21,970 bases of DNA from a virus, in the IMG/VR virus record IMGVR_UViG_3300025132_000352, positions 1 to 21,970 of that record; one strand, given 5' to 3'. This document shows positions 20,119 to 21,970 of the stretch, one piece after another. Position numbers and translations under genes: made by a program. Under the pieces are notes generated by a model. That model searched no databases. It saw nothing but the letters and a program-made list of their open reading frames with translations, and was not told where the DNA came from. Within the stretch, counting starts at the first letter, position 1; every line of letters starts with the position of its first letter.

Positions 20119-21270
20119 TTAGAATGCAGCGTTACCAGAAGATCCAGTAGCAGCACCAGCGATTAGTTCAACAGCAGCAGCTGGGTTAAGATAGTCTGCA
20201 CCCATGGCTAGTCTTCCTAAGATTACATCACCTTGGTATACAACTGATACGTCACCAGATGTTACTTGTACTTGAGGACCGATAGCCTCTACACAGCCTG
20301 CGGCTTCCTTCTGGAAGATAAGTCCACAGCTGTTTGCAAATTCAGTCTCTTCACCGTACTCGTTGTTGATACCTGTTACATCAGCAGCGGCATCTTCGAC
20401 ATCTTCGCTAACAAATGAACCTACGTTTGTAGGAGATGTGATTCCGGGGTTTGTTGCACCAGCAGAACCATACTTAGTACCATACTTACTGAAGAATGGA
20501 ATGTTCATTGACTTGTAGATCTTGATGCCTGCAATTTCAATGATACCTTGTCCAGACTGTAATGCTGTACCTTGTACGTCTCTGTTTACAAGACCGTTAG
20601 ATCCTACAGCTTGGATAAGCTCGTAGTACTGTCTTGGGTTTAGTACACCTACTCTTCCATCAGAAGAAACGCCTTTCTCATCTAGTGCAGCAGCTGCATC
20701 ATAGAAAGCGTTGATTAGGGAAGCAGCAACATAAGCATCAGATGCTTGGTTGTTTGTTCCTACACGTATTTGTGTACCGCCGGGCTCAACAAAGCCTGAC
20801 TTAGTGATTGGAGAAGCAGCCCTAGCACCACGAGCGATAGCTCTGAATACTAAACGGTCATACTTCTGAGCGAGAGCATATCCAATCTTCTTAGATATTT
20901 CTCCTCTTAGTTCATAGTGAGCAAGTGTCTCATCTAACTCGTAGACAAATGCTGAACTGATTAGAAGGTCATCAACTGTGATGGTCTTCTCAGCTACTGG
21001 AGGTGCTCCATCGGAGTTACCTAGTATGCTGTTACCGGGTGTATGAAACTCGGCTTTTGTGTGTCCTGTGTAGATGAACTGAAGTGACTTACCGTTTGTA
21101 AGTGTTCTCTTCATCACGAGATCTCTAGCTATAGCATTGTGCTGGAAGCCTTTGAACATCTCTCCACTGAACAGCTTTAAGTATAAGGCTCTAGCGTCAC
21201 CTGTGCTATTCGATTGACCCGGACGGGTTAACGGAGCAAGTTGACTAGAACCTGATTGTTGTTGTGCCAT
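20119..21270 (-). CDS. Major capsid protein, T7 gp10-like
   Basis: This 383-residue protein assembles the icosahedral shell (HK97 fold). It begins MAQQQSGSSQLAPLTRPGQS and carries family features LYLKLFSGEMFKGFQ, MKRTLTNGKSLQF and ISSAFVYELDETLAHY, ending in an Ala/Gly-rich tail. T7 gp10A is 345 residues. Codon use is noticeably more GC-rich and regular than in neighbouring genes, as expected for the most highly expressed product. There is no strong Shine-Dalgarno, only an A/T-rich leader. An intrinsic terminator follows, and a structured 155-base leader precedes it. Confidence 0.95.
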   Translation of the reverse strand: MAQQQSGSSQLAPLTRPGQSNSTGDARALYLKLFSGEMFKGFQHNAIARDLVMKRTLTNGKSLQFIYTGHTKAEFHTPGNSILGNSDGAPPVAEKTITVDDLLISSAFVYELDETLAHYELRGEISKKIGYALAQKYDRLVFRAIARGARAASPITKSGFVEPGGTQIRVGTNNQASDAYVAASLINAFYDAAAALDEKGVSSDGRVGVLNPRQYYELIQAVGSNGLVNRDVQGTALQSGQGIIEIAGIKIYKSMNIPFFSKYGTKYGSAGATNPGITSPTNVGSFVSEDVEDAAADVTGINNEYGEETEFANSCGLIFQKEAAGCVEAIGPQVQVTSGDVSVVYQGDVILGRLAMGADYLNPAAAVELIAGAATGSSGNAAF

Positions 21271-21425
21271 TGTTATGGATTAAAGAAATTGATATTGCTT
21301 AGTACTAAATTTTTTTCGATCGGTTTTTTGTGTGTCTATCCACACCGTCTAGACGGCATAAGGTGTCTCCGTAGAGGCTTGTGCCAATAGCAGGGGAGTC
21401 CGACTCTGAGGTGCTCCCCGTGCAG
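21271..21425 (-). promoter_or_regulatory. Structured untranslated leader ahead of capsid gene
   Basis: This gap holds no convincing ORF. From 5' to 3' on the minus strand it contains: a hairpin with stem GCA(C)GGGGAG/CTCCCCTGC (21423-21390); the 12-base palindrome CCGTCTAGACGG; an inverted repeat GTGTG/CACAC followed by an A-run; a second A-run; the palindrome TTAGTACTAA; and an A/T-rich run into the ATG. T7 has its phi10 promoter in the equivalent position, so a phage RNA polymerase promoter and processing site may lie here, but I cannot identify a promoter consensus from one copy. Confidence 0.55.
21390..21423 (-). other. Hairpin after 41-codon ORF
   Basis: A 9-bp stem with one bulged base (GCA-C-GGGGAG with CTCCCCTGC) encloses a 15-base loop and begins 2 bases after the 41-codon ORF stop. 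No T-tract follows, so it is not a standard terminator. Its core GGGGAG/CTCCCC is the same as the stem of the terminator beyond the capsid gene. An RNase processing site or 3'-end stabiliser is plausible. Confidence 0.6.
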
Positions 21426-21551
21426 TTAGTAAGAAGGAGTCTCTAATTGAGCATCTTCTTTCTTTTCTTCAGTTTTTGTAGGTTCGGGTATAGGTTCAAA
21501 ACTCACAGGATGAGCTTTACCAAATCCTCCACCTTCACTTTGTTGTGCCAT
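21426..21551 (-). CDS. 41-aa ORF coupled to riboswitch micropeptide
   Basis: This 41-codon frame starts MAQQSEGGGFGKAHPVSF, continues with a Pro/Glu/Lys-rich disordered segment (EPIPEPTKTEEKKED) and ends LETPSY. The ATG overlaps the stop of the 17-codon ORF (TAATG, 21553-21549), so its translation should follow that of the riboswitch-controlled peptide. Its first twelve bases are identical to those of the capsid gene (both encode MAQQ), which may reflect a shared translation-start sequence. No family is recognised, and no high-light-inducible motif is present. Confidence 0.65.
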   Translation of the reverse strand: MAQQSEGGGFGKAHPVSFEPIPEPTKTEEKKEDAQLETPSY

Positions 21552-21604
21552 TACTTAACGATTTTAGTATATGTAACACCACGGTAAACGTAAGTTACTG
21601 TCAT
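21551..21604 (-). CDS. 17-aa micropeptide, DUF4278-like
   Basis: This 17-residue ORF encodes MTVTYVYRGVTYTKIVK. A strong Shine-Dalgarno (GGAGG at 21614-21610) is 5 bases upstream of ATG 21604. The pattern M-x-V/L-T-Y-x-Y-R-G-V-x-Y matches the opening of the short cyanobacterial DUF4278 proteins (MxLTYRGxxY). Downstream-peptide riboswitches are known to precede ORFs as short as 17 codons in marine picocyanobacteria, which agrees with the RNA element just upstream. It is coupled to the 41-codon ORF. The peptide's function is unknown. Confidence 0.72.
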   Translation of the reverse strand: MTVTYVYRGVTYTKIVK

Positions 21605-21670
21605 AGCTTCCTCCGATACCTAGCCCCCGTTCCATGGCTAGATTGCATGCGTCGCATAGCGATGAACGGA
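21605..21670 (-). ncRNA. Downstream-peptide (glutamine-II class) riboswitch
   Basis: Between the psbA stop and the 17-codon ORF, the minus strand reads, in order: CCGTTC (21669-21664); a small hairpin TCGC-TAT-GCGA (21662-21652); a hairpin CTAGCC/GGCTAG (21641-21636 with 21625-21620) whose loop holds GAACGG (21632-21627); then GGAGGAAGC before the ATG. The loop GAACGG is exactly complementary to the upstream CCGTTC, giving an H-type pseudoknot. The CGTTCATC, CATGGAACGGG and GGAGGAAGC blocks match my memory of the Downstream-peptide motif of marine Synechococcus/Prochlorococcus and a cyanophage, shown to bind L-glutamine (Ames and Breaker). The Shine-Dalgarno lies at its 3' edge, so control is probably translational. 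Confidence 0.82.
21620..21641 (-). other. Riboswitch P2 hairpin with pseudoknot loop
   Basis: A 6-bp perfect stem CTAGCC/GGCTAG closes a 10-base loop that contains GAACGG, the 3' strand of the proposed pseudoknot with bases 21669-21664. This is the structural core of the riboswitch call. Confidence 0.8.
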
Positions 21671-21678
21671 CGTTTGAG

Positions 21679-21970
21679 TTAAGCTATTTGTGGTGCTGTA
21701 AGTGCTACGTTTGTAGACTCAGCTGAAGCTAAGTCGAGTGGGAAGTTGTGAGCATTACGCTCGTGCATTACTTCAAAGCCTAAGTTAGCTCTGTTTAATA
21801 CGTCAGCCCATGTTGGAATGACCTTGCCATTAACATCAACGACGGACTGGTTAAAGTTAAAGCCGTTAAGATTGAAAGCCATGGTGCAGATGCCCATTGA
21901 GGTGAGCCATATGCCAACCACGGGCCAAGTAGCCAAAAAGAAATGTAAGCTACGAGAATTATTAAAAGAG
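21679..21970 (-). CDS. psbA: Photosystem II D1 protein, C-terminal part (5' end outside window)
   Basis: The frame is open from the right edge and encodes the last 96 residues of D1. By alignment to cyanobacterial D1 numbering it begins at Ser264 ([11 protein letters not shown], including the non-haem iron ligand His272) and covers the last membrane helix ([12 protein letters not shown]). It retains the manganese-cluster ligands Glu329, His332, Glu333, His337, Asp342 and Ala344 in [18 protein letters not shown] 15-residue C-terminal extension ([15 protein letters not shown]) follows, to be removed by CtpA. Counting from Ser264 to the processing site gives exactly 344, so there is no indel. 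Phage D1 replaces damaged host D1 during infection to keep photosynthesis running. Its place ahead of the capsid gene matches other psbA-bearing cyanopodoviruses. Confidence 0.97.

Follow-up and report, generated by a model that had tools for sequence, protein, structure and literature searches.

The window, that is, the whole stretch of DNA that was analysed, is a 21,970-base viral fragment which carries on its minus strand the structural genes of a T7-like cyanophage, arranged in the order psbA (its end), riboswitch, 17-aa ORF, 41-aa ORF, capsid gene and onward (Table 1). The stop codon of psbA lies about 7 nt 5' of a Glutamine-II riboswitch match, and 13 nt 3' of that match begins the 17-aa ORF (ATG ACA GTA ACT TAC GTT TAC CGT GGT GTT ACA TAT ACT AAA ATC GTT AAG TAA); an earlier note on this DNA had singled out this ORF and its near-perfect Shine-Dalgarno sequence, and both are present as described. 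The 41-aa ORF is probably translationally coupled to the micropeptide.

Table 1: Features of the riboswitch-peptide-capsid region of the window.
Feature	Position	Strand	Basis or remark
psbA (photosystem II D1), 3' end	21679..21969	-	upstream gene in relatives has D1 homology
Glutamine-II (type 2, Downstream-peptide) aptamer	21618..21671	-	Rfam RF01704, full model 1-60
Candidate anti-SD UCCG, 5' flank	21667..21670	-	pairs with CGGA (21615-21612)
5' pseudoknot strand CGUUC	21664..21668	-	pairs with GAACG at 21632-21628
P1 hairpin UCGC-UAU-GCGA	21652..21662	-	Rfam alignment; loop can hold a whole ORF in relatives
P3 hairpin (AUCUAGCC / GGCUAGGU)	21618..21643	-	Rfam alignment
Shine-Dalgarno GGAGG	21610..21614	-	sequence; 5 nt 5' of micropeptide ATG
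Micropeptide ORF MTVTYVYRGVTYTKIVK, 17 aa, single YRGxxY unit, DUF4278-related	21551..21604	-	
41-aa ORF MAQQSEGG...QLETPSY	21426..21551	-	start overlaps micropeptide stop (TAATG, 21551)
Second conserved structured RNA, peptide-capsid gap	21330..21387	-	absent from Rfam
Major capsid protein gene	20119..21270	-	

The riboswitch control of the ORF that had been supposed agrees with what lies directly upstream: the RF01704 covariance model scores 54.0 bits (gathering cut-off 33; E 9.5e-11), which places the element in this class. All three helices, namely the H-type pseudoknot CGUUC/GAACG, P1 and P3, are found in the window, and both pseudoknot strands are present in 210 out of 210 unique viral cassettes, of which 150 are compact, like that of the window, and 60 are split (see below). 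When the 12 nt 5' of the pseudoknot strand, together with its first two bases, were set against the ribosome-binding region of the peptide, the cognate duplexes reached -6.97 kcal/mol versus -5.37 kcal/mol with shuffled partners; these duplexes covary between loci, and none of 5000 permutations was as good, a figure inflated by the kinship of the loci (by class, 0/5000 for GTA flanks and 107/5000 for the GTC class). Examples are the pairing of TTCTCCAAAG with CTTTTGGAGAA in L021, of TAATCTCC with GGAGATTA in L075 and of TTCGTAC flanks with GTACGAA. The candidate anti-SD of the window shares two bases with the pseudoknot strand, an overlap that would give an ON switch, in agreement with reports on type 2 glutamine riboswitches, in which glutamine binding activates expression (PMC6316151). 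Since thermodynamic folding with the pseudoknot strands blocked gave no consistent opening or closing of the start region, we infer the direction of switching from the literature, according to which the window riboswitch would switch ON with glutamine. A sigma-70 promoter scan near the cassette found three candidates versus 1.3 expected, none of them usable, and no simple intrinsic terminator was found between the peptide and the capsid gene.

The cassette recurs widely among related phages. A blastn search retrieved 28 phage records, including P-SSP7, P-SSP2, P-SSP3, P-GSP1, NATL2A-133, 9515-10a, S-TIP37 and S-RIP1/2; in all 14 cyanopodovirus records examined, the riboswitch lies between psbA and the capsid gene, with a YRGxxY ORF directly behind it. 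The short forms are never annotated in these 14 records, as expected from the earlier remark that the ORF is far shorter than the genes normally annotated; forms of 33–38 aa or longer are annotated in some of them. Patterns describing the riboswitch only matched 34 and at least 120 viral contigs, and the ORF is present in every match that has a genuine P3 hairpin and extends far enough downstream (with a GTG start in four), the remaining matches being contig ends or chance matches. The ORFs bear [LFY]xYRGxxY close to their C-terminal end and, as a conserved ORF of 17–100 aa directly behind the aptamer, correspond to what characterizes the Downstream-peptide class. No exception occurs among 118 unique viral cores for the YRG triplet, the second Tyr or the hydrophobic or aromatic character of position -2; YRG was partly selected by the filter, while the second Tyr (118/118) and the -2 residue (118/118) were unselected; the consensus is [LFY]-x-Y-R-G-[VI]-x-Y-x-[KR]. 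The core had been written as MxxTYxYRGxxY: its YRGxxY part holds throughout, while the N-terminal MxxTYxY is limited to the 17-aa subgroup. The in-frame dN/dS (Nei-Gojobori) is 0.27 over 96 cores, and 0.25 and 0.20 in two subgroups, versus 1.1–2.7 in the other two frames, a large contrast which, being calculated over all pairs with no tree, is a description rather than a formal test. To judge from these sequence comparisons, purifying selection acts on the reading frame and its YRGxxY core, and the 17 codons form a genuine phage gene rather than a product of chance, given the same layout in relatives, the invariant unselected residues and the in-frame constraint; conservation of the frame beside the same RNA element in related phages and coding constraint, the two points on which the earlier note had staked its proposal, thus both came out in its favour.

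The genomic position of the cassette is also conserved. A capsid gene follows within about 1.3 kb in 120 of the 126 viral loci with enough downstream sequence, and a search anchored on the capsid gene found the cassette in 34 (25 compact, 9 split) of the 36 contigs that extend at least 1.4 kb upstream, the cassette being absent from L332 and L341, where a psbA-length ORF stands directly before the capsid gene; an apparent loss of the riboswitch in some of the capsid-anchored contigs turned out, on inspection, to be mostly the split form. In some loci (e.g., L066, L110, L148), 1.5 kb of upstream sequence yielded no psbA, which ties the cassette to the capsid gene rather than to psbA. Two IMG/VR contigs of 32 and 51 kb (L002 and L012), not placed in the T7-like group, have the riboswitch and a 47-aa YRG peptide, with no capsid gene detected nearby; the L012 phage encodes DNA polymerase I and thymidylate synthase. 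The coupled ORF is swapped among relatives (window 21426-21551 (-), L311, L313, L317, L015, L326, L366), being a short acidic protein ending in ...QLETPSY or ...EEALSTL, a Cys-rich protein (CGHCGDKKPECRKQKKCLKGLL) bearing CGHCG, an outer-membrane-like protein (Phage_OMP), endonuclease I or none. That the peptide is kept while the following gene changes points to a function of its own.

A search for relatives leads to the host. Host proteins were gathered by a genome scan with the riboswitch pattern and by PF14105 searches, and those of Prochlorococcus and Synechococcus lying behind a Glutamine-II riboswitch mostly hold two to four YRGxxY-like units (two in 33 aa, three in 55–57 aa, up to four in 71–78 aa), many of them matching PF14105. 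With a profile built from 86 phage cores and a threshold of 10 bits, 31 of 36 host proteins are recovered and 0 of 3386 shuffles, which identifies the repeat unit as homologous to that of host DUF4278 members. Strict membership of PF14105 (gathering cut-off 25.3 bits) was judged on phage siblings of 20–60 aa, the 17-mer being below the length limit of the scan: two host forms scanned pass with 33.1 and 42.9 bits, phage siblings of 20, 21 and 33 aa give no match, and viral-contig siblings of 47 and 60 aa reach 17.3 and 22.9 bits, so that the closest siblings long enough for scanning are not members. The label DUF4278-like given earlier is therefore right as to the kinship of the YRGxxY unit and too generous as to the family cut-off; in terms of sequence, the multi-unit hosts and the profile matches make the phage peptide a single-unit relative of host DUF4278 microproteins, outside the Pfam family. 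The short phage peptides of 20–33 aa match no family in a Pfam scan and only phrog_5049, weakly, in PHROGs, and a PDB profile search with host DUF4278 proteins gave no match. An AlphaFold model of a host 57-mer has two separate beta-hairpins, at residues 3–12 and 48–55, corresponding to the first and last YRG units, with low confidence (mean pLDDT 71, pTM 0.23); on this prediction each YRG unit is probably a small beta-hairpin. The 33-aa peptide of the host RNA Yfr6 fits the 33-aa host form in length and riboswitch class (PMC2518516, PMC2864571), and the Yfr6/Yfr14 peptide appears to belong to the same DUF4278-type family. The part by which IF7 and IF17 bind glutamine synthetase (GS) is absent from the phage peptide, whose 17 residues hold the YRG unit alone; in IF17, GS inhibition is reported not to require the DUF4278 part, which is said to promote protein stability (PMC6316151).

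By its kinship, the peptide is probably a mimic or competitor of host DUF4278 microproteins. The earlier note was largely right as to the nature of the ORF; the regulatory role it supposed for the peptide, perhaps by mimicry of small host proteins in nitrogen assimilation, is a putative one. According to the mechanism proposed here, the aptamer would fold when glutamine is plentiful, the 5' flank would be released and the ribosome-binding site unmasked, and the peptide would be produced during structural-gene expression; in trans, it would mimic or compete with the host microproteins at their partner, candidates being PII and glutamine synthetase, and the high-glutamine response of the host would be altered while the phage builds its protein-rich virions. 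To the whole of this proposal, a peptide made under high glutamine and acting in trans as a mimic or competitor, we give an even chance. Should the peptide indeed be produced, a very small gene that ties the glutamine status of the host to virion production has been overlooked in nearly all T7-like cyanophages of the type sampled, and DUF4278, a domain of unknown function, is reduced to a testable 11-residue unit.

The peptide might also be a by-product of a leader ORF, the translation of which, set by the riboswitch, would serve reinitiation on the next ORF or the tuning of the capsid operon. The TAATG overlap in the window, the fixed position of the cassette upstream of the capsid gene and the ORF that starts between -4 and +8 nt from the peptide stop in 104 of 256 loci speak for such a role, and this last figure keeps it in consideration; yet in 118 of the 256 loci no ORF is found within 30 nt of the peptide stop, the capsid gene may be as close as about 240 nt or as far away as about 1260 nt, the amino acids of YRGxxY are held with synonymous change while the downstream partner varies, and the same unit is repeated in stand-alone host proteins, so that we regard such a leader function as rather unlikely. 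A different role in cis, that of an arrest peptide which halts the ribosome during its own synthesis and thereby acts back on the riboswitch or on the gene that follows, would suit a short ORF with a conserved motif near its C terminus beside a metabolite sensor, but seems highly improbable, since the residues after YRGxxY number 2–10 (22–50 in three cases), which leaves no fixed register with the peptidyl-transferase centre, and the host has tandem units within one protein.

The host RNAs provide the background for another explanation, namely that the peptide belongs to a toxin-antitoxin-like pair, an idea once put forward for Yfr6/Yfr14: Steglich et al. 2008 made this proposal for Yfr6, an RNA that holds a 33-aa peptide and is overlapped by an antisense RNA whose level rises on phage infection (PMC2518516), and the 5' UTR of Yfr6 has the Glutamine-II riboswitch class (PMC2864571). 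No conserved partner gene is found beside the phage peptide, however, and glutamine control and the association with nitrogen fit poorly with such a pair, for which we see very little likelihood. Finally, a reading frame of only 17 codons, under most annotation thresholds, might be no gene at all, being incidental or a host gene copy in decay. Taken over the whole class of such frames, the coding constraint contradicts an incidental ORF and, with the invariant residues among the cyanopodoviruses examined, makes the no-gene reading the most far-fetched of suppositions. The reading as a trans-acting relative of host DUF4278 microproteins is the one retained here.

The most surprising part of the finding is a split form of the riboswitch. 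Nine capsid-anchored contigs have the peptide and the 3' half of the riboswitch but no CGTTCA nearby; in those inspected, CGTTCA lies about 185–212 nt upstream, and the gap is filled by an ORF of about 54 aa with the core WPGGxPxEQ, belonging to phrog_628. A search by the inserted protein alone gave 80 loci, in all of which CGTTCAT stands just before the start codon (chance expectation for CGTTCANC, 0.6% of 25-nt stretches), and the riboswitch 3' half follows the stop of the inserted ORF in every locus, L405 ending within it; the split form comprises L348, L349, L352, L357, L358, L364, L366, L367 (S-SBP1) and L368-L447. P1 re-forms and covaries across the insert (UCUAUG/CAUAGA, UCUAUG/CAUGGA, UCCAAU/AUUGGA), also in more distant ORF lineages (UCUUCU/AGGAGA in L348, UCUUCU/AGAAGA in L349, UCCUGUGUU/AACAC-UU-AGGA in L358), its third pair alternating between U-A, U-G and C-G everywhere but in L382; one mismatch or bulge comes next in P1 in the UCCUAUG group, and the start codon of the inserted ORF usually falls inside P1. 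The inserted ORF is strongly constrained, with a dN/dS of 0.13 over 59 unique sequences, and of 1.5 and 2.3 in the other frames. The cultured phage S-SBP1 (MT424636.1, ~1985-2190) has the split form, gp32 being the inserted ORF, after which comes an unannotated 35-aa YRG peptide; neither half of the riboswitch accompanies the three phrog_628 homologues that were checked in T4-like cyanophages. Five split loci submitted to Rfam all score below the cut-off, so that standard annotation would miss the split form.

This split architecture, a conserved phrog_628 ORF between the P1 strands, is well supported by the sequence comparisons, and hints at the ability of a metabolite-sensing aptamer to accommodate an entire conserved gene in a loop. 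In the main split lineage the AUG lies within P1 (UCUAUG/CAUAGA) and the stop just after CGC, in the aptamer core, so translation of the inserted gene and glutamine sensing should exclude each other; we infer that the split form binds glutamine and that this exclusion operates. That such a riboswitch, carrying a whole protein gene in its aptamer, with translation and sensing mutually exclusive, would report both glutamine and ribosome traffic is an interpretation to which we incline.

Short ORFs behind Glutamine-II RNA have been known since 2010, when Weinberg et al. gave the RNA a name referring to the 17–100 aa peptides encoded behind it and noted their synonymous change (PMC2864571); the novelty thus resides in the phage variant. 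Reviews tie this RNA to DUF4278 and to nitrogen control (PMC6316151), and the systems described so far (PMC2864571; Klahn 2018 via PMC6316151) share with the present one an aptamer above cut-off, a short conserved ORF of 17–100 aa and the synonymous pattern. They were reported from cyanobacteria and marine samples, whereas the present cassette is phage-borne, stands beside the capsid gene and encodes a single-unit peptide, and, unlike in those systems, some phage relatives have a gene inserted in P1. The DUF4278 proteins (PF14105: the N-terminal part of IF17, PMM1846-type proteins, the Yfr6 peptide) have the YRGxxY unit and the same upstream riboswitch (PMC6316151, PMC2518516), but mostly two to four units, with many passing the Pfam cut-off, in contrast to the single unit of the phage, the tested siblings of which fail. 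Phage CP12 (PMC7760959) is likewise a small, phage-encoded version of a host metabolic regulator, but a full protein of demonstrated function, whereas the phage peptide is a 17-residue fragment and, judged from sequence, a putative regulator. A phage-borne glutamine riboswitch is reported in T4-like cyanophages (PMC9602691) and in the tmRNA of methylophage Melnitz (PMC9004378); in the parts of these two sources consulted, the riboswitches have a glnA-type motif or another gene context, and no peptide cassette is described. The open-access literature searched contained no description of the cyanopodovirus cassette, nor of an ORF inside a riboswitch loop.

The gap between peptide and capsid gene holds the second structured RNA, of the pattern UUGGC....GCC[stem]UACG[stem]GAUACC....GCCGUCUAGACGGU(G)GGGAUAGACCACA, with a UACG-type hairpin and CCGUCUAGACGG / GUGGGAUAGACCAC elements. 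It occurs in 147 of 262 viral loci by an exact-motif scan, which misses variants and contigs ending early. The UACG-type stem pairs fully in 26/26 distinct variants (mean 3.7 pairs versus 1.0 shuffled, maximum 1.8), and in the RNAalifold analysis both partners have changed in 5 of the 14 pairs. In many loci (L010, L038, L045, L125, L321) a hairpin resembling a tRNA T-arm (GGGAGGTTCGATTCCTCCC) lies 5' of this RNA; it is possibly a tRNA remnant, and in NATL1A-7 an annotated tRNA-Gly occupies its place. The window has a different hairpin, GGGGAGC/GCTCCCC, at ~21390-21425 (-).
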